Positions 37,944-51,931 of a stretch of DNA of 64,000 nt are shown piece by piece. A program made the translations under genes and the position numbers. The stretch comes from Arabidopsis thaliana (Eukaryota; Streptophyta; Magnoliopsida; Brassicales; Brassicaceae): assembly GCF_000001735.4 (NCBI RefSeq), contig NC_003076.8, positions 21,889,835 through 21,953,834 on the forward strand, given 5' to 3'. Numbering within the stretch: the first letter of the stretch is position 1; every line of letters begins with the position of its first letter. Under the pieces are notes generated by a model that was not told the origin of the DNA, did no database searches, and saw nothing but the letters and a program-made list of their open reading frames with translations.

Positions 37944-38045
37944 TGGGTTGACTTTGAAAATGAAGACAAATTATAGAAACCACACTAATTAGTAACAAAA
38001 TAGCTGGATAATAATAATAATACTGACTTATAAACTTATAATAAT

Positions 38046-38111
38046 ATATGACCTTCCAACCATTCTGCTACGACTAAGCCAACACAAAGTAACATGTAAG
38101 CCATCGTGCCT
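38046..38111 (-). repeat. DC1-upstream repeat copy 4, joined to UGT relic
   Basis: Runs from TATGACCTTCCAACC to CATCGTGCCTA and then passes without a gap into UGT79B1-like coding sequence (AAACAGAGTTCATG). The junction marks a deletion or recombination breakpoint. Confidence 0.65.
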
Positions 38112-38670
38112 AAACAGAGTTCATGAAACTGATCTATTGTCTACAACCGGTTGGCTACCGAAGCACAGAACAGAACGAACCGGGGTCGAGTTTGGCTTAG
38201 CCACTCCGACCACTGAGGCTCTAAGGAGGGCTGATTAGGTTGGTCTCCTGCAGGCAGAATTTGATTTTATGACATACACGGATCAGCCTGGCCCTTATTT
38301 TTAAAAAAATCAGCACAGAACAAAAGAAAGTTTCTACATACCTAAAAGGATATCATCATTTACCCATATAAAAAGTTGATTGATTCATCTAGAGGATGGT
38401 TAGATGAATTAAGATATTGATCATATTTGGTGAGTAATTAGTGGATTAGTTGAATAAATCAAGTTTTTATCTTGTCCTGATTTTTCTCTCCGCAGCAGGG
38501 ACAAGAGACAGTGCGATTGACGCAGCGCTAACGATGTTGAAGCAAACGGTTTTAGCACCGATCGGTTTAGCAATTTCCGGTATCCAATGGGCAGAGTCAT
38601 AGAAAACCAAGTCCGGTTTGATTGTACGGAAAATGGTCTCGACCTCTGGCCGGGTTTGGTCCAAAACACA
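38110..38670 (-). pseudogene. two UGT79B1-like fragments
   Basis: Fragment 1 (38110-38265) matches 47575-47725 of UGT79B1 with many changes. Fragment 2 (38480-38670) matches 48000-48180 with only about two differences in 180 bp. Between them lie ~215 bp of unrelated AT-rich DNA, where the gene has over 250 bp of coding sequence. The two pieces differ greatly in age or one was overwritten by gene conversion from UGT79B1. Confidence 0.85.
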
Positions 38671-39012
38671 AAAGGAAAACTTACATATTTAGATAACTTC
38701 TAAATATAACATTGTTCATAATCTCTTTAAGATATTGCAAAAGTTTTTTTTTATTTTTTATTTTTATTGCTAAAGTTATCTTTCAAGCTTATGTCGACAT
38801 TCAGTTCCATCATTCACAAATGCATAATGTGAGATTGGCTCCAATCGTCTATATATATAGATAAGATTTATGCCTAATCGTTGTGTTTAGCTCTTACATG
38901 AAAAATCAAGAAGTATGGAATCCATTAATATCCAAAAGAAAACAAATAATATTCTCAATACATACAATGCACAATACAATAAAAATTTGAAAATAGTTCG
39001 TAATAGAATATG

Positions 39013-40803
39013 TTAAAAGACTCTCAAGTCCCAGTCCCGAAGTCCGATGTCGAGAGCGAATCTATAAGGTGAAACTGCAAAATTAAACTCCTTTGGGCAG
39101 AGATCTTTTGAACAATACCAAATACCAAGATCTTCTTCTGTACCCTTTATGAAGAAGGGGAACTTGCAACGTAATTCACACTTGGTGCAGATAGGTCGAG
39201 TAGCACCATTGTTAGGATGTACTTCCATCCTAGGACCTGGGCATCCGACTTTGGTATAATAGCAATCCCCAAGTACACAATCAATATGGAGACTTAGCCC
39301 ACAATCATCACAAGTATAGTAAAATACACTCGGGTCTGTCTTTGTCTCACAAATATCACACCACAAGTCACCACTTGCACTTCCCACACCTTGACATAGT
39401 GACAGATAATGATCATCACATCTGTGTTTTACCTTTCTTGGTAAAGCAGCGCACCTCGTGCATAAAGAGTAATCATCACAAACCGTACAATTCAAGGGAT
39501 TCCAATCTATTTTTCTTTTACAAGCGTGACATTTATTGGTTTTCTCCAACGTAAAATATAAGGGATGTTGATGCAGATCATGGTGAAACGGTTCCGATAC
39601 AGAACTACACCGAACATCGTACGTAAAACTAATACTTTTGCAACCTTCATGAAGACACTCGTAAATGAAACCATTAGTTTTTATGTCACAAGCTTTACAT
39701 CTCAAAAAACGGTTACCTGTCGATGAAAGAGTGAGTTTATGCTTATGCAATAAATGTCGCATTTTTCGAGGAAGATTCGCACACGCTTTGTGAAGGATGA
39801 AATCACATTCAACGCATCTGTAGCATGGGTCACCGTTGATAGCAAGAACGCAACACCGACAACGCATGTTAGCATCATCCGTTACATAAATCTCGTCCAA
39901 TCTGAGAACATGCTCTTCATGACTAAAATGAATGATATCTCCCTTTTCATTAATTACCTTGAATGGATCTTCGATTTCTTCTTCTTCTTCGGGCACATCT
40001 TCGAGCTCTAAACCATCCCACACTTCGTATCTTGTTGCACATCTTGAATGAACGGCATAACTAGGACAACGAGAGCATTTATAACCTCCATAGACCCAAT
40101 TGATCGTCTTCCGACAAACTCCACACTCCCAATCTCCTTCTCCTTGACCAAGGTGAAAAGTATGAGATATGCGATGGTCATGACGATTTATGCTTATGAC
40201 TCGCGGTAGATTCTGAACACACTCTTTGTGGACCATCAAATTGCATTCAAGACATACGTAAGGATTGCGGTCATCTACCACACCACAAGCATTACAAGTA
40301 AAGGTGACTAACCTTAACAAGAGGGTGAGACTATGCTCGTGGTGTTTTGGTTCGAAAATTGCGAGTGGTGGTCCCAATGCCATTAAACATTTTTTATCCA
40401 CGTTTATGTTGCATATCGTGCAACGAGCAAAGAAAGACGGAAGATTACGTAGCCGAGCAAAGAAAGACGTAAGCTTACGTCGACAAAAATGACAAGAAAG
40501 GTCGTCTTTACGGTCAGGGTCAGGCCACGCGAAGGTATTACGGTAGATCTTGAGAACGTGATTGCATAGAAATGGCCGGTTGAGGAAGAGGTGGTCAACG
40601 CATTCTTTGTGCAACGTCAAGCCACAATCCGTACACTCGTAACTGATACAAGTAACACTTCTTCTTAGCCATGAAGAGTTCTTAGAGAAAGAGCACAAAG
40701 AGCAAGATTCCAAAAAAATACAATAAGAACTTGACATAGGATGATCATGAAAAGGAACCGTGAGTTTAGGCATGGTGGCTAGTTGGAAATCATCAGGAGT
40801 CAT
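39013..40803 (-). CDS. DC1 domain protein 3
   Basis: Single exon. The start at 40803 (MTPDDFQLATMPKLTVPFH) is chosen by alignment of PFHDHP with the paralogues, although the frame is open to 40905. Product 596 aa, probably AT5G54040. It is the longest of the four copies. It contains a short tandem duplication near residues 130-150 (SFFARLRNLPSFFARC) and a longer C terminus ending in RDWDLRVF. The DC1 module order and the acidic linker (EDVPEEEEEIEDPFKVINEKGD) match the other copies. Cys/His zinc positions are intact throughout, so the gene looks functional. Role unknown. Confidence 0.9.
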   Translation of the reverse strand: MTPDDFQLATMPKLTVPFHDHPMSSSYCIFLESCSLCSFSKNSSWLRRSVTCISYECTDCGLTLHKECVDHLFLNRPFLCNHVLKIYRNTFAWPDPDRKDDLSCHFCRRKLTSFFARLRNLPSFFARCTICNINVDKKCLMALGPPLAIFEPKHHEHSLTLLLRLVTFTCNACGVVDDRNPYVCLECNLMVHKECVQNLPRVISINRHDHRISHTFHLGQGEGDWECGVCRKTINWVYGGYKCSRCPSYAVHSRCATRYEVWDGLELEDVPEEEEEIEDPFKVINEKGDIIHFSHEEHVLRLDEIYVTDDANMRCRCCVLAINGDPCYRCVECDFILHKACANLPRKMRHLLHKHKLTLSSTGNRFLRCKACDIKTNGFIYECLHEGCKSISFTYDVRCSSVSEPFHHDLHQHPLYFTLEKTNKCHACKRKIDWNPLNCTVCDDYSLCTRCAALPRKVKHRCDDHYLSLCQGVGSASGDLWCDICETKTDPSVFYYTCDDCGLSLHIDCVLGDCYYTKVGCPGPRMEVHPNNGATRPICTKCELRCKFPFFIKGTEEDLGIWYCSKDLCPKEFNFAVSPYRFALDIGLRDWDLRVF

Positions 40804-41116
40804 TTTTGTATATTCAAAGAAGAAAATAAAAAGCAGAAGTTGAGTTATAATTTTGTCCTGTGAGCTCCTCATTATGTAGTACTTAACTTCCTTGGAACTC
40901 ATCAATTAATTTTTAGTTTATTTTCTTTGTACCAATGGTAATTGATGGCCGACACTGCCGGCTAATTAATATAAATTATATATATACATATATATACGCA
41001 ACTTTACAAGTTGTACGAAATATTTACTTGTTTGGGTTTCTTGGCAACTTCAACTAAACTACACGTAAGATTCTTGAAAATTTTGATAGGTATATATCAT
41101 AAAAGAAAATTACAAT

Positions 41117-41203
41117 ATATAACCTTTTCTAGCCACTCTACTATGATTAGGCCATCGTGCCTACAACTTCAAATTACCAAAGTCGTCGCCTTGTTCAGAA
41201 TTT
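41117..41203 (-). repeat. DC1-upstream repeat copy 5
   Basis: Diverged at its start, but CATCGTGCCTACAACTTC and TTACCAAAGTCGTCGCC are the same as in copies 2 and 6. It lies ~310 bp before DC1 gene 3. Confidence 0.65.
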
Positions 41204-41489
41204 ATAAGTAAATAAACATATACTCCCAAATTGATATAATATACTACTTTTTATTTATTTTATCTTTGCTAAATAATATAATCATCTACTACTTGTTTGG
41301 TTTTCTTGACTTTCGCACAAATAATAAATAACTGATGAATTGATGATGACGATTTGCCTCATGTAAGATTCTTGACATTTTCGTAGATCAGTTATATATC
41401 ATAGCTGAATTTTTCTCCGACCAATGATTTTCCCTTGCTAACTCTATTTTGCCTTCTTCTTTTCGTATACGTAAACACTTTGATTAGAG

Positions 41490-42110
41490 TTTTTTTTTTT
41501 TTTTTTTTTTGAAATTAAAGTTTAAATTGTATTCAACAGAAAAAAAAACATTTCTACAAATAATTCATTGGTTTATTAACAACTGAATAATTACGATAGA
41601 AACGTTTTTTGCAAACCACATCTGTAGCCTTATTAAAAAAAAAATACATCTTTTTTTTTTGCTAAAAATGTAAATATTTCATATAATGAAAAAGTTTTTA
41701 GAATTACATGAAGTAGATCCTATGGTTTGGTCCCATGGCAAAAAAAGATAAAAAAACATGGAAGAAAAACAATCGGTCCATTGAAAAAAAAACATATTTA
41801 GCCCTTCCTCGTCTCTTTGGTCCCCCTTTCAAAGATTGAGCTGAGGCTGTTTCTAACGTACTTGTCGATGAGCTTGATCAAACGAGTATGAGATGAGTGA
41901 TTTTCTCCATGTCTTTAAGCATTTCTCTCAAGCCAAATGTGGTATAAGGTTGCTTGGAAAACATACCGTAGAGAGACGTGATTATATTAGACGATCCCAA
42001 TCAGTCGAACAGTCATTTACTTGGGTTAGAACTCGCCAAATTTCAGCTGACTACTCGTCTACTCATTACTGGCAAGAGAAGAAGAGATGACACCTTGTCT
42101 CTTCAGAATA
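41490..42110 (-). mobile_element. degenerate 5'-truncated LINE, minus strand
   Basis: Begins (plus-strand view) with a T22-type run at 41491-41513, the poly(A) tail of a minus-strand element; a second T-run lies at 41651-41662. The minus strand of about 41840-42060 encodes the same ORF2 C-terminal motif as the 35.2-kb LINE (YVFQATLYHIWLERNA, LIKLIDKYVRNSLSSI) with an in-frame stop and shifts. The paralogous spacer at 34480-34545 lacks the whole segment, so it is an insertion between AACTCTATTTTGCC... and AAAATTCGACTTTC. It may be two nested insertions. Confidence 0.7.
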
Positions 42111-42299
42111 GGGAAAATTCGACTTTCAAATATCACTAAAGCCCCAACTTTGTATCGTTTTTCTCAAACATTTTTGGGTATTATTTTTGCATCTGTCCAC
42201 AAACACAACGTTTACCAACGGTTGCCTTTAAATAGGATTGACATGTCACATGTGTCTTTTCATAAAGTTTTATAAGTTTATAACATATAGATATTATTG

Positions 42300-43290
42300 A
42301 AATGAACTCATGAATTCACAAGTTCAACTAAATTCTGTCCAAACATATTAATATAACCATCTGCAAAACTAGAGCCAGTCAAAACACATCTCCACTAGTC
42401 ATGATTCTTTCTCACTTTCTAACCGACCTCACTACCTTCCTCCATCACACTCTTTACTGCGATCTCCAAGCTCCACCGCGAGAACCACCCATTCTCTTGC
42501 CTCTCCACTTCAATCGCCACCTCCATCTCCTCCGTCATCAGCCTCGCGTTCAATATTTGCAAACCGTACTGTGAAACCAAAACAATCTAACAATCACTCA
42601 TCAAAGACTCCCACATTGACCTAAACCCGCATTGGCTAACAAAATATCTCACTGAAGGATGCTTTAACACCAACGGTTTGCTGAATCCTATCTCCATATA
42701 CAACGCTTCCTCGACGGTTGATACACTCGAAGGAGACGTAATTGCAACCAGAAACGGAAAACCGGTTGATTCTAGCCCTAAACAGAGTTCTTGAACTATC
42801 TTGTCTACAACGGGTTGGCTACCGAAAGCGCAGAACACAACCTAACCGTGGTTGAATTTGGCTAGCCACTCCACCCATTGAGGCTCTAAGGAGGGCTGAT
42901 TAGGTTGGGATCCAGGGAGAACCGGTCCGGGTCCGGTTAGGTAACCCGGTTTGCTGTATTGGCTACTGATGTCACAGAATTTTCATTCTCATTGCGGTAA
43001 CTTTCCCGTCAAGGAAAGAACCAATCCCCTCCGCGCACGCAAGACGACTTTCGAGACGTCTTAGCTAACTCCTCCCCTCTCTCTCTCGGCGCTTTAGCAA
43101 TTTCCGTTATCCAATGGGCAGAGTCGTAGAAAACCAAGTCCGGTGTTGATTGTACGGAAAATTGTCTCAACCTCTGCCCGGGTTTGTGGCCTTTTTCAGC
43201 TAGTTTGTTAGTCAGATGCAAAAATGCAGTCATGTGACCAAAACCAAACCATGGAACATAAAAGCATGAAACTTTGACACCATATCTGTT
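42300..43290 (-). pseudogene. chimeric UGT79B pseudogene
   Basis: From 42325 to about 43187 it matches UGT79B1 (C terminus to mid N-terminal half) with several deletions and in-frame stops. From about 43188 to 43290 it instead matches the first ~30 codons and leader of UGT79B6 (TTAGTCAGATGCAAAAATGC...). The 5' flank 43290-43828 also matches that of UGT79B6. It is therefore a dead hybrid of the two gene types. The PSPG region has lost key residues. Confidence 0.85.
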
Positions 43291-43828
43291 CTTTTGTTCT
43301 TCTGCTTTGTCTTCTGAACTTCTTCTTAGAGTTTATATGTTTCTGTTTATGAGAGTACTGGTATGAATTGAATGATTCAATTGTATTACGAATATGTCAA
43401 ATCTTTAGTTTTGATTACTTTACTATCTATATTTAAGTTGTTTATAATCTGTAGTTTCCTTTTGTTATTTAATTTCCAGAAATTACTCCCTAAAATCTAT
43501 GGTATATGTCTACAAAATTAACTGCAATAATTATTAGCTTCTGGAAGCTTTATTTACATTCAACGTTGTTTCTAATATGCCAACGACTGCCAAGTATACA
43601 ATTGCAAAGAATTAATTAATTTATTTTTGGTAGGAAAGAATTGATTAACTTATGTAATTTCCCCTTTTTATTCTCATTTTTTTCTTCATAAAATATACTA
43701 TCATGCGAAAGAAAATAAAAATTGGAATATAATTCTTAACATCAAATGTTGAAAAACTTTTAAAAGCACACTGTTTTACAATATAGACAAAGAATGTCAA
43801 ACATAAATGTGAATAGTTATAACTAGTC

Positions 43829-46136
43829 CTACCTTGGGCATAAGTCTATTGAACAAACATAAAGAGCAGATTGTTCTTTTGTACCCCTAACGAAGAAGGG
43901 GAACTTGCAACGAAATCCACAACGGGCGCAAGAAGGTCGAGTAGCACCATTGTTAGGATGTATCTCCATCTCAGGGTTTTGGTGTCCTAGCTTCATATAA
44001 TATAAATCTCCAAGTACACAATCAATATGGAGACTTAGCCCACACTCATCACAAGTATAGTAACGTACGCTCGGATCTGTCTTCGTCTCACAAATATCAC
44101 ACCACAAGTCACCACTTGCGTTTCCCACACCTTGACATAGTGACAGAAAATGATCATCACACCTGTGTTTTACCTTTCTTGGTAAAGTAGCGCACCTCAT
44201 GCATAAAGAGTATTCATCACAGACCGTACAATTTAAGGGATCATCTTTTATTTCTTTGTTACAAGCTTGACATCGTCTAGAACTTTGCAAGGTAAAATAT
44301 AAGGGATGTTGATGTAAATCATGGTGAAACGGTTCCGATACCGAACTACATCGAACATCATAGGCGTTCTTATTTTCGCAATCTTCATGAAGACACTCGT
44401 ATATGAAACCATCTGTATAGATTCGACAAGCACTACACTCAAGAAAATTATCTTCATCAATACGCCTAGATGAAAGAGTGAGTTTATGGTTGTGCAATAA
44501 ATGTCGCCTCTTCCGAGGAAGATTAGCACACGCTTTATGAAGGATGAAATCACATTCCATGCATTTGTAGCATGGATCACCATTGATAGCAAGAATGCAA
44601 CACCGACAGCGCATGTTAGCATCATCCGTAACATAATTCTCATCCAATCTGAGAATATGCTTTTCATGACTAAAATGAACAATATCTCCCTTTTCATTAA
44701 TTACCTTGAATGGATCTTTGATTTCTTCTTCTTCTTCGGGCACATCTTCGAGCTCTAACCCATCCCACACTTCTTTTTTTGTTGCACATTTTGAATGAAC
44801 GGCATAACTAGGACAACGAGAGCATTTATAGCCTCCATAGACCCAATTAATCATCTTTCGACAAACTCCACACTCCCAATCTCCTTCTTTTTCACCAAGA
44901 TGAAAAGTATGAGATATGCGATGGTCATGCCGATTTATGCTTATGACTCGCGGTAGATTCTCAACACAATCTTTGTGGACCATCAGATTGCATTCAAGAC
45001 ATACGTAAGGATTGCGGTCGCCTTCCACACCACAAGCATTACAAGTAAAGGTGACTAGCCTTAGCAGGAGACTGAGGCTATGCTTGTGGTGTTTTGGTTC
45101 AGAAATTGTGAGTGGTGGTGGCTCCGCCACACATCCTATATGCAGGCTTATGTTGCATATCGTGCAACGAAGAAACATATGATGAACCTCAAATCGACAA
45201 AAATGACAAAGGTCGTCAACTATACTGTCAAGTGGTGAGATAGTGCTAACAAAGATCTTGAGAATGTGATTGCATATAAATGGCTGATTGAATAAGCGGT
45301 CAACGCAGTCTTTGTGCATCATAATGTCGCACTCCTTGCAATGATAGTTGATGTTATTGGATATTCGCAGGGCCGGTCCGTGGTATTCAGATGTCCTATA
45401 CCACCAAAAAAAGCCATGCTCTTTAAAAAATTTTCTTTTTTGTAATATCATAAATAATATTAATACAAAATTGTCATACTGAAACTTAAAAAACAGTGAT
45501 TAATTCAATAAGCAGTTTATAAAGAAAGAAAAAAATGGTAAAATCACAAATAATATTAATATACCTTAGTAAGCTTGAATCAATGGAAAAATAAAATTTT
45601 GTAAGCGTTTAGGATATTATTTTATTTTAAAACCAAAATTTTACTAATAAAATTTGTTAACAACACATTTTACTATAATTTTATTAACTGAAATGCTAAA
45701 CCCCAATGTATGGTAAAATAAACCCCAACAAATTAAAAAAAACACTTAAAATTTTGTATATGAATATGAAATTATATTTAAAAATTCTAAAACTTAACAA
45801 TTATTTTTGAAAAGTTATATTTTAAAATTCAACAAATTCAAATTAAAAAAAAAAACCTCGCCAATAAATTCAAAAAATTTAAAAAAACTTAGAAAATTTT
45901 GTTTTAACATATAAGACCTAAATTTTCTTAAAACAAATATGCCTTTTATAATTTTATTACCTAAACCATGGCTCCACTTCATTCTGCCATACGCCGGACC
46001 TGAATACTTGCCAACTGAGGGAATGATAATGAGAGCACAATGAGCAGTAAAATTCAGCAGCAACAGGATCATCACAACATGATAAAGGATGATCATGAAA
46101 CGGAAAGGTGACTACTTCGACATCAGTAGAAGACAT
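43829..46136 (-). CDS. DC1 domain protein 4 with TE-derived intron
   Basis: Two exons: 45961-46136 and 43829-45395, giving 580 aa, the length I remember for AT5G54050. The donor (TTTAG|GTAATA) and acceptor (GGTATAG|GACATC) both lie inside a 635-bp hAT-like insertion at 45368-46002, and the frame is kept. The paralogues have no intron. Removing the element and one target-site copy would leave an uninterrupted frame (..SLSWQVF-NNINYHCKEC..), which supports this reading. The spliced protein thus carries about 26 extra residues (RSGVWQNEVEPWFR, then TSEYHGPALRIS) between the first DC1 Cys pair and its partner. The remaining DC1 modules and acidic linker are intact and closest to DC1 gene 2. Confidence 0.88.
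45368..46002. mobile_element. non-autonomous hAT-like DNA transposon
   Basis: 635-bp AT-rich insertion with short inverted ends: CAGGGCCGG at the left and CCGGACCTG at the right (8 of 9 complementary). It is flanked by diverged 8-bp direct repeats GATATTCG (45360-45367) and AATACTTG (46003-46010). An 8-bp target-site duplication and CAGG..CCGG ends fit the hAT superfamily. There is no transposase frame. It sits in the first module of DC1 gene 4 and supplies that gene's only intron. TSD mismatches (3 of 8) suggest some age. Confidence 0.75.
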
Positions 46137-46282
46137 TTTTTTCTAATAAAAATTATAAGAACAAAAAGAGAGAAAGCAGTTGAGTTTCAGTTTCATTGGA
46201 ACTCATTTAATGGTAATTGGCGCATACTGCCAGCTAATCGAAAATAAAAAATAAACAAACCAACTAATAGTAATAACAATAA

Positions 46283-46445
46283 GATATGACCTCAGTCCCC
46301 AGTCATTTAAATACGATCTAGACAGAGTTGTAATGTGCCAAAGTCGTCGCATTCTTAAGAATTCTTCTTCTTTATTTTTATTTATTGTCGACATCGTGCC
46401 TACAACTTCAGATTACCAAAGTCGTCGCCTCTTGTTCAGAATTTT
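46283..46445 (-). repeat. DC1-upstream repeat copy 6
   Basis: Partly duplicated copy: the CAAAGTCGTCGC motif occurs twice (46338-46350 and 46418-46430) around a TTATTTTTATTTATT insertion. It lies ~150 bp before DC1 gene 4. Confidence 0.65.
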
Positions 46446-46479
46446 AAAAAAAAAAATAAAAAAATACCAAACTGAAATA

Positions 46480-46747
46480 TTTTTTTTTTCTTTTTTTTTA
46501 AATTTTAAATTTCCATTAAAAGAGAAATATACAATGCCAAATGGCTAAAAAGGCTCGCAGGCCTGAACATTACACGGCAAAAGCCCAACACAGGTTCGTA
46601 GGCCCCAAAAGAAACAGAGGAAGAGAAGAAGGAGAAAAGGAAACAGAGACTTACCCGAACAACCTAAACCAGGTTGAGAGAACTGAAGATCCCGGTCTGG
46701 CTAACCGCTGGGCTCTAGCGATCGGATCTAGGCGAGCTTTCAAGATA
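46480..46747 (-). mobile_element. short non-LTR retroposon with target-site duplication
   Basis: 268-bp GC-richer insert that starts (plus view) with a T-run (poly(A) tail of a minus-strand insertion). It is flanked by 14-bp direct repeats ACCAAACTGAAATA (46466-46479) and ACCAAATTGAAATA (46748-46761), with one mismatch. The paralogous spacers lack it. Size suits a SINE or a strongly truncated LINE; an A-box-like AGCCCAGCGG is seen near its 5' end but no clear B box. Confidence 0.7.
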
Positions 46748-47067
46748 ACCAAATTGAAATAATTTAATTATCTGGTTTAATTTATAGCTGATGATGGCGA
46801 TCTGTCGACATTTTGGTAGATCTATCTACGAATCTCCCTTGCAAACATTCTGATTTTTGAGTAGGGAAGATTTGACTTTCAAATATTTTTGAGTAGGGAA
46901 GATTTAACTCTTATCGATTTTCAAAAAAATTATACGTGTTTTTGCCACTGTCCACAAACACACCGTTAACGAACGGTTGTGGTTAGATACGATATGCACC
47001 AATCATAAATAATCGTTACATCTCATTTCATAAATGTTTATAACACATTGAAATTATTAAAATGAAC

Positions 47068-48474: not shown

Positions 48475-49022
48475 TTTCTTGGACTCTCTTGTATTTCACT
48501 TTAACTACCGGAAGATCCTTATTAGACTTTTTTTGTTCTCTTTTGTTAATTTCTAAGTTGTGTGTTGGATGTGTATAAATACATAAACCTTTAACGGATC
48601 AGATTGGTGAGTGTCCTGATGAATGGTGTGTGGTTATTGGGTAACCAAATGACCGGGCAAGTGTAACCTCCTGGTAAGTGCAAACACGTGATGGTATCGT
48701 AACATCAACAAAAGCAAAACCAGACTTCACGTGGTAATTGATGGGCCTGAAATATTCGGCCCCCTTTTTAAGCAAATTAATAGACTCTATTTAAAAGTCG
48801 TTATTTGTTCGTTACGCTTAATAATCCCACAGTCAACGTTTTATGTCTTAATTCAAAGGTTGTTTACGAACGATTGTCAAAGTGGTAACTCTCGTAATTA
48901 ATATAACGTTTCTTTACATATTACCCCTATAAATTGTTTGTTTATTTTGATACCAAAAGCATCACAATTAAACAGTCGACTAATCTTCATAGAAAACAAA
49001 AGAAAAGATCACTAGAGTCACT
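48475..49022. other. divergent promoter of UGT79B1 and prolamin-like gene
   Basis: 548-bp bidirectional intergenic region. It includes the G-boxes listed separately. The right part (48830-49020) was copied to 53160-53340 together with the start of the prolamin-like gene. Confidence 0.6.
48685..48733. promoter_or_regulatory. two G-boxes upstream of UGT79B1
   Basis: CACGTG occurs at 48685-48690 and 48728-48733, 211 and 254 bp before the UGT79B1 ATG. G-boxes bind bHLH and bZIP factors such as those that drive anthocyanin genes; the assignment is inferred from context. Confidence 0.5.
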
Positions 49023-49646
49023 ATGGAAGGTAAGATCCAAGCTCTTCTCTCGACGATTCTAGTTGTGACTTTGTGTGCCACTACTTTAGTGAAGCCCGGG
49101 CTAGCTCAACTCCCTACCAGTGCTGGGTTTTCTCTACCCGGCTCCCAAGTTGATCTCGCAAAATGTTGGTCATCGCTCCTCAACATTCACGGTTGCAATA
49201 TCGAAATCTTTAAATCTGTTTTAACCGGTAAGTTTGAAAACGTTGGATCCACGTGCTGCAAGGCTTTTACAGAAGTGGATGCAAAGTGTTGGCCAAAAAT
49301 GTTTCCGTTGAATCCATTATTCCCTCCTCTTCTCAAGGATGGTTGCTCTCGCATCATCTCAGGTGCACCAGCACACAAGACACCGCAATTCCCTGTCATC
49401 CCTGGTTCTCCGATCGATCTCACAAAATGTTTGTCATCACTTGTCAACGTTCAAGGTTGTGTAACTGAAATCTACAAATCAGTTTTCACAGGAAAGTGTG
49501 ATAACGTAGGATTTATGTGCTGCAAGGCGTTTATGGCTGTGGATGCAAAATGTTGGCCAAAAATGTTTCCACTAAATCCGTTCTTCCCTCCTCTCCTCAA
49601 AAATGTATGTTCTCGCATCAACACATCTGCTCCTACACACAAGTGA
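49023..49646 (+). CDS. secreted prolamin-like (ECA1/DUF1278) protein, two domains
   Basis: Single exon, 207 aa, probably AT5G54062. A signal peptide (residues 1 to ~29, ending KPGLAQ) is followed by two copies of the prolamin-like Cys domain. Domain 1 has C48, C58, C78-C79, C89, C108. Domain 2 has C136, C146, C166-C167, C177, C196. The spacings (10, 20, 10, 19) are identical, so the 88-residue unit was duplicated within the gene. Domain 2 also has an extra C159. Most family members have one domain. The family includes egg-cell-secreted EC1 proteins and other gametophyte peptides; function of this member is unknown. A truncated copy of its 5' end lies at 53.2 kb. Confidence 0.9.
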   Translation: MEGKIQALLSTILVVTLCATTLVKPGLAQLPTSAGFSLPGSQVDLAKCWSSLLNIHGCNIEIFKSVLTGKFENVGSTCCKAFTEVDAKCWPKMFPLNPLFPPLLKDGCSRIISGAPAHKTPQFPVIPGSPIDLTKCLSSLVNVQGCVTEIYKSVFTGKCDNVGFMCCKAFMAVDAKCWPKMFPLNPFFPPLLKNVCSRINTSAPTHK

Positions 49647-50424: not shown

Positions 50425-51760
50425 ATCTTCCTCGGTAGATCAAGCTAATTGATCACTATGAGAATGAAGTTTCAACAGATTGCGTCATGGAGTAATGGGA
50501 GCTTCAAGCTCGAAAAGGCCCTTCCTTTCGATAATCCCAGGTGGTCCTGAGGATGTGGTTTACCATGGGGATGCAATACCCGATGGGACGGTAAACTTCA
50601 ACAACGTAGAGTATATAGCTCGTGTTGGTTGGGTGTTTGGGTTACTTATGCTGAGAAAGTGCCTCTCTGGAATCCTAAAACTGGTAAGCCTACAGATTTT
50701 AGTACCAGTTTCTCCTTTAAGATTGATACCCGTAACCTTTAGAATTACGGTCATGGGATCTGCTTCTTTCTTGCTCCTTTGCGGATTCAACTTCCTGTGA
50801 ACTCAGCTGGTGATTTCTTGGGTCTTTTTTTCTCGAATCGAGAGCTACGCATCTTCGTTTCCGCTGGTTCATATCGAGTTTGACTCATTCAATAACCAAG
50901 AATGGGATCCTACCACTGTTGGATCTCATGTGGGAATCAATAATAACTCTCTTGTTTCGTCTAACTACACTTCTTGGAATGCAAGCTCACATATCCAAGA
51001 TGTTGGTCATGCACATATCTCCTATGACTCTGTTACTAAGAATTTGAGTGCGTCTTGGGCTTATGAATTAACCTCTGATCCTCAGGAGAGTTTAGGCATT
51101 TCCTATATCATTGATCTTGCAAAGGTTTTGCCACCACATGTTACGGTCGGGTTTTCAGCCGCTACTGGATCGGTCACAGAGGGACATAAGCTTTTATCAT
51201 GGGAGTTCATCTCAAGTTTGGATATTGAGGTTTGTTTATAAGGATCTTGTTTTAGCTACCAACAGATTCTCAGCCCAGAGGAAGCTTGGTGAAGGAGGGT
51301 TTGGGGCAGTTTATAGATGGTACTTGAACGAAATAGATATGATGGTTGCTGTGAAGAAATTGTCTGGTGGTTCCAAGCAGTGAAAGAAAGAGTTTGTAAC
51401 CGAAGTTAAGATCATTAGCAAACTGCGTCATCGAAACCTGGTGCAGCCCATTGTGTTGGTGTAATGAAAAAGATGAGTATTTGCTTATATAGGAGTTCAT
51501 GCCGAATGGTAGCTTGGACACTCACCTCTTTGAGAAAAGACCCCTTATCTCACCTAGGACACACAGATCTTCACGGAGAGGGAGATCGGTGTGTGTTGCA
51601 TAGGGACATCAAGGCAAGCAATATCATGTTGGACATCAATTTCAATGTAAAAGTAGGTGACTTTGGGCTGGCTCGATTGATGGACCATGAACTAGGCTCA
51701 CATACAATAGCGCTAGCAGGAAATTACATAATTGTCAAAGACTTTTGTCTGTGTGTGGAC
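50425..51760 (+). pseudogene. L-type lectin receptor kinase pseudogene
   Basis: Pieces in several frames match a LecRK of the clade-IX type. Lectin parts: DVVYHGDAIPDGTVNFNNV, then WNPKTGKPTDFSTSFSFKID, GLFF..., and HVGINNNSLVSSNYTSWNAS. Kinase parts: [41 protein letters not shown], then [16 protein letters not shown]. There are several frameshifts and stops. The signal peptide is degenerate. The segment between SWEFISSLDIE and YKDLVLATNRF is missing, so the transmembrane region is lost, and the kinase stops just after the activation segment. It is clearly dead. Confidence 0.9.
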
Positions 51761-51931
51761 ATGTGTAGGGCAAGTGAACCACGTTTTATTGAAATTCAAA
51801 TTCAAGATAATCCAATCAAGTTTGACAAAAGAGAAACAAAAAGATAGGGCAAAAAAAGCCAGCACTTAACTAGGATATGAAATCCAAAACATAAATAGTC
51901 AAAAACAGAAAAGAAGATAGGTGCAAGCGAG

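Follow-up and report, generated by a model that had tools for sequence, protein, structure and literature searches.

A hAT-type transposable element has probably inserted into a single-exon DC1 gene of Arabidopsis thaliana and now serves as a predicted intron of 565 bp which adds 26 residues to the protein; we put the probability of this reading at about 85%. The insertion was found in the window (the whole 64,000-nucleotide stretch of DNA that was analysed) and interrupts DC1 gene 4, on the minus strand (Table 1).

The tandem cluster comprises four DC1 genes (genome matches at C5 21922833, 21926518, 21929867 and 21934614) and is adjoined by a UGT79-type glycosyltransferase gene. At5g54060 and UGT79B1 are named together in the literature, and we take them to be the same gene. 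Based on this co-mention, and on passages of PMC4879556 in which At5g54040 and At5g54050 both appear as C1-domain genes, gene 4 is most likely At5g54050, an assignment made on gene order and not on an annotation record. The same passages report that At5g54050 is upregulated under phosphate deficiency, with At5g54040 >20-fold higher, and make no mention of At5g54050 splicing. The main-text passages of an Arabidopsis long-read study of gene-transposon transcripts (PMC10241880) name none of the At5g54 genes. Elsewhere in the window, positions 50801-51847 probably hold what is left of a lectin receptor kinase, as short frames that are not joined carry a legume-lectin piece (Pfam Lectin_legB 7e-32) and a brief kinase match (Pkinase 1e-9), and positions 48993-49646 encode a protein with two Prolamin_like stretches, as if duplicated internally. 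One tandem DC1 paralogue (L005, C5:21926518-21927189) has a longest frame of 433 residues, its two neighbours having 591 and 630, and is possibly truncated.

Table 1. Coordinates of gene 4, its inserted element and two relatives of the element. Positions are those of the window unless a chromosome is given; a slash within a motif marks the exon-intron junction.
Feature	Position	Strand	Details
Host contig of DC1 gene 4	NC_003076.8, stretch 21,889,835-21,953,834		A. thaliana chromosome 5
Coding exon 1	45961-46136	-	Gene start at 46136; 42 nt (45961-46002) from the donor end of the element, remainder host
Coding exon 2 and stop codon	43829-45395	-	Stop codon at 43829; first 28 nt (45368-45395) from the acceptor end of the element, remainder host DC1 modules
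hAT-like non-autonomous element, 635 bp	45368-46002	- (gene's strand)	Inverted ends and end-to-end similarity to relatives
Flanking 8-mer GATATTCG, degraded target-site copy	45360-45367		Gene-downstream side
Flanking 8-mer AATACTTG, degraded target-site copy	46003-46010		Gene-upstream side
Predicted intron, 565 bp	45396-45960	-	GTAATA...TATAG, phase 2; top frame-keeping GT-AG pair
Intron base +2, T (GT donor)	45959	-	None of 8 aligned relatives with GT
Alternative weak donor CAG/GTCCGG at element tip	45998-45999	-	Intron 45396-45999, frame kept, 567 aa, third-ranked open pair
Alternative donor candidates	45999; 45966; 46007		CAG/GT at 45999 (element tip); GCAA/GTATTC at 46007 (host exon 1)
Relative L003, 591 bp	C3:19420064-19420654	inverse orientation	Perfect 8-bp duplication AACATGAG
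Relative L048, 640 bp	C5:15983789-15984428		Same ends, 6/8 duplication

The initial annotation had described a 635-bp element with inverted ends and an 8-bp target duplication. The element and its ends stand: the 9-bp inverted ends (CAGGGCCGG / CAGGTCCGG) are 8/9 identical and form short CAGGG-type terminal inverted repeats, which we take to be hAT-type ends, with the acceptor end at 45368 and the donor end at 46002; its relatives have ends of the same kind. The duplication stands only in part, as the element's own flanks are imperfect and match at 5/8 positions, but a perfect 8-bp copy is present at the relative L003. Random 8-mer pairs drawn from positions 38000-47000 match at 5/8 in 4% of draws, hence the flanks alone are weak evidence; this is offset by the perfect duplication at L003 and by the frame test described below.

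When the two ends of the element (111 and 106 bp) were used as genome queries, they matched nothing beyond the element itself. Relatives were reached through two interior matches of the element, followed by searches with the relatives themselves, and the relative L002 as query returned 22 matches, including L002 itself and the window copy. Aligned end to end with L048, the window element scored 260 (z 9.2) against a mean of 127 and a maximum of 182 in 200 dinucleotide shuffles, the alignment with L003 gave z 6.5, and within the 42 nt of the donor end 31/42 positions were identical to L048. A multiple alignment of 13 copies gives the window copy only 52–58% identity to the 12 others, and ten L048-like copies are 83–91% alike. 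It is therefore chiefly the ends, and with them the collinear length, that mark the gene 4 element as a divergent member of a multicopy family newly recognised here. Besides L003 and L048, no scanned family row has an 8-bp flank pair with two or fewer mismatches. A tree of the 13 copies was considered as a clock and set aside, the window copy lying on a very long branch.

Paralogues within the same genome were used to read the state of the gene before insertion, as the initial annotation had suggested was possible. From 158 matches to a DC1 query, 30 were taken as loci, including gene 4 itself, and the other 29 were aligned; none carried more than five residues at the 26 alignment positions that the insert occupies. 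The frame used in three of them (L011, L028 and L032) leaves the first module uncovered, leaving 26 informative paralogues, and the insert is absent from 26/26. Deleting the element together with one target copy had been expected to restore the frame, and does so with either flank copy; when both copies are kept the frame is not restored. Deletion also returns a full DC1 match, the first module scoring 22.9 bits against Pfam C1_2 with the insert and 32.7 bits without it (cut-off 26). As the informative paralogues lack the insert, and both frame and C1_2 match are restored on its deletion, the insertion is, on this comparison, the derived state. The same difference in score indicates that the extra residues weaken the first DC1 module, which now falls below the Pfam cut-off and may be non-functional even if the transcript is spliced. 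Variation in this module does not require a transposon: in one tandem paralogue (L006, C5:21922833-21923498), the paralogue alignment shows it without the first cysteine pair.

Splice sites were assessed over 555 GT-AG pairs around the element, with sites at least 60 nt apart and assumed splice-site weights. Thirty pairs keep the frame, and among these 45960/45396 ranks first; 39 GTs and 28 AGs were scored, and under these weights its donor and its acceptor each take second place in their class. By the same weights the predicted donor, TTTAG/GTAATA, is of middling strength with positions +5 and +6 off consensus, and the last 70 intron bases match yUnAy only at -68 and -59. The predicted intron is 81% A+T and the exons 59%. 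Left unspliced, the frame meets a stop just past the donor; spliced, it stays free of stops and frameshifts for 580 aa, and the protein matches Pfam C1_2 in nine stretches (E 8e-59), placing it in the DC1 (C1_2) family. Because this is the top-ranked open-frame pair, encloses an A+T-rich sequence and leads into an intact downstream frame, splicing at these two sites is the best reading and is predicted here. These results bear out several points of the initial annotation: removal of 45396-45960 keeps the frame across a predicted GT-AG intron, the gene apart from the insertion is one open frame and thus otherwise single-exon, and the gain of 26 residues is accounted for by 42 + 28 nt of element ends and an 8-bp flank copy, computed as 78 nt. 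That the element has become the only intron of gene 4, as was also claimed, is what we infer from these features.

A different choice of sites, in place of or alongside the named pair, is unlikely but has candidates to hand. These are the donors at 45999, 45966 or 46007 and a TTTCAG acceptor at 45479, and the open-frame pairs ranked two to four make use of them. Exonic Ds1 in maize is alternatively spliced with three donors and two acceptors, according to a passage of PMC5432752 citing Wessler 1991. In gene 4, however, all of these pairs have a lower summed score than the named pair.

Whether the gene is still in use also bears on this interpretation. Over residues 181–580, dN/dS between gene 4 and five paralogues is 0.32–0.43, close to the 0.29–0.40 seen within that set of paralogues. 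For residues 71–180 gene 4 gives 0.61–1.47 and the other paralogues 0.37–0.94 among themselves, and for residues 1–43 the values are 1.06–1.46 and 0.58–1.56, although the last segment says little, being high in most paralogue pairs. The N-terminal part of gene 4 thus tends to be under weaker constraint than that of its paralogues. Regarding age, if the two flanks started out identical and have changed at an assumed rate of 7e-9 per site per year, their three differences in eight sites have P 0.013 at 5 My, so that an age under about 5 My is unlikely. An unconstrained frame of the length of gene 4 would stay free of nonsense and frameshift mutations over 5 My with P ~0.002, a figure which uses an assumed indel rate (nonsense alone, 0.13).

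It is improbable that the insertion simply broke the gene, with inefficient splicing, a dead exon 1 and protein made from a methionine in the element or in exon 2. The damaged first module and the raised N-terminal dN/dS would suit such an outcome, as would the frame of exon 2, which stays open back into the element to 45499 (window 45368-45499) and includes an in-frame methionine (MILQKRKFF...), so that transcription initiated within the element could also yield a long DC1 protein. Exon 1, however, is still open and retains its histidine/cysteine motif, the open splice pair with the top score is in frame, and by the estimates above a frame free of constraint would rarely stay intact over the likely age. 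Constraint, age and the reported phosphate response together favour removal of the putative intron from the transcript. It is scarcely credible that the sequence is instead an old DC1 intron lost by all other paralogues, even with intron loss being much commoner than gain in plants in a passage of PMC4256211, since its ends are those of a transposon and related copies lie at other places in the genome, and since precise intron loss would have left the 26 residues in place in the informative paralogues.

The two splice sites of the predicted intron appear to differ in origin. In alignments read by eye, AG at the acceptor position is present in 7/16 relatives, absent from 7 and not alignable in 2, and GT at the donor position occurs in 0/8 relatives, of which five have GG and one each GA, AA and AT. 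From these counts, the element probably brought the acceptor with it and the donor GT probably evolved, in the simplest reading by one change at 45959, either in the gene 4 copy or in an unseen source. The CAG/GT donor at the element tip (45999), also in frame, could have served first.

Transposon insertion followed by this change would proceed as follows. A non-autonomous hAT-type element of ~640 bp would have entered the first DC1 module of the single-exon gene, duplicating 8 bp. In gene orientation, the acceptor end of the family often has a T-rich tract ahead of an AG, and the donor end reads TTAG/GG in several copies, a single substitution away from GT. Once GT stood at 45960-45959, 565 of the 635 bp could be spliced out, and the retained ends together with the 8 bp, at 78 nt, would keep the frame and add the 26 residues. 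We infer splicing of the transcript at the named sites, this order of events, and continued use of the gene.

Other family copies near coding sequence were surveyed by listing reading frames crudely around 21 other family rows, some of which are pieces of one copy. Five were looked at closely, and three (L050, L052 and L053) were taken further as they abut coding-looking frames at the acceptor end; peptides from these three gave no Pfam match above cut-off. At L053 (C4:15696127-15696511) the element is flanked by two pieces that look coding, MDDLERRLGDIRTS... and ...FVLYLIHFIVVFRITEE..., which are rejoined in frame by 4/107 GT-AG pairs. The best two of these use the family acceptor, itself the best of 12 AGs; the host donors are weak, the best pair having the donor GTTT/GTTAAG. 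A search for an empty site found no close paralogue, the only other match being 35% identical, and we regard L053 as a lead to a possible second intron from the same family. At L052 (C1:7026412-7027134) an element-derived intron was considered and rejected, since paralogues at C1:7051849 and C1:28558816 continue the exon upstream without an element, indicating a 5'-truncated gene copy abutting the element. At L050 (C1:7076651-7077161 and beyond), the end of the element (ACATGGCGAACCGGTCGTATG) leads directly into an exon that looks coding, whose start codon it may provide (MANRSYDLLLGGVDP...).

More tentatively, the element family as a whole could be a half-made intron, with gene 4, and possibly L053, as fixed Introner-like gains in a land plant; we hold this to be somewhat doubtful, the splice-pair result at L053 having made it slightly less so. 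If true, many family copies in one orientation would carry a usable acceptor and a donor one base short of GT. As the retained ends and duplication amount to 78 nt, a multiple of three, a sense insertion spliced in this way would keep the frame wherever the element lands. Read by hand, the family ends are open, and hence free of stops, in one of three phases.

Intron gains in plants have mostly been deduced from presence/absence. The transposon-to-intron route itself is already known from maize and other eukaryotes. Exonic insertions of the maize hAT elements Ds and Ds1 are spliced from the transcript, as cited in passages of PMC4256211, PMC3443670 and PMC5432752, which also point to the ‘De novo synthesis of an intron by ... 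Dissociation’ (Giroux 1994) and to work on Ds1 (Wessler 1991). Gene 4 resembles these alleles in having an exonic hAT-type element and putative splice sites in or near the element, and in that element ends and eight nucleotides of target sequence can stay in the mRNA, which for gene 4 is a prediction; the 8-bp duplication of the maize alleles would have its counterpart in the 5/8 flanks of gene 4. It differs in that the insertion belongs to the reference genome, looks old and leaves an intact frame, and in that its donor seems to have arisen by mutation after insertion or in this copy only.

Comparison can also be made with Introners, transposons creating many introns in one genome (PMC9860276). 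In passages of that study, Aureococcus Introners supply both donor and acceptor, with a gain of 12 bp (4 bp plus an 8-bp TSD), and among animals and land plants Introners are given for only two groups, both animals. The gene 4 element shares with those of Aureococcus its inverted ends, both putative splice sites and added codons, and its flanks would be a degraded 8-bp TSD; unlike Introners, its family presents, in the rows surveyed, one clear case and one lead (L053), not a genome-wide burst. Table 1 of PMC3443670 has a row of 35 transposon-to-intron events from Oryza, Drosophila, Oikopleura and Zea, which are likewise intron gains by transposon insertion; Arabidopsis is absent from that row. 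According to a passage of PMC4256211, the insertion or structure of a transposable element had, as of 2014, not been tied to any of the proposed intron gains that are fixed in a species. Against this background the gene 4 case looks old and is unusually easy to read: element, flanking sequence, related copies and paralogues without the intron all occur within one well-studied genome, and the states before and after insertion can both be made out.
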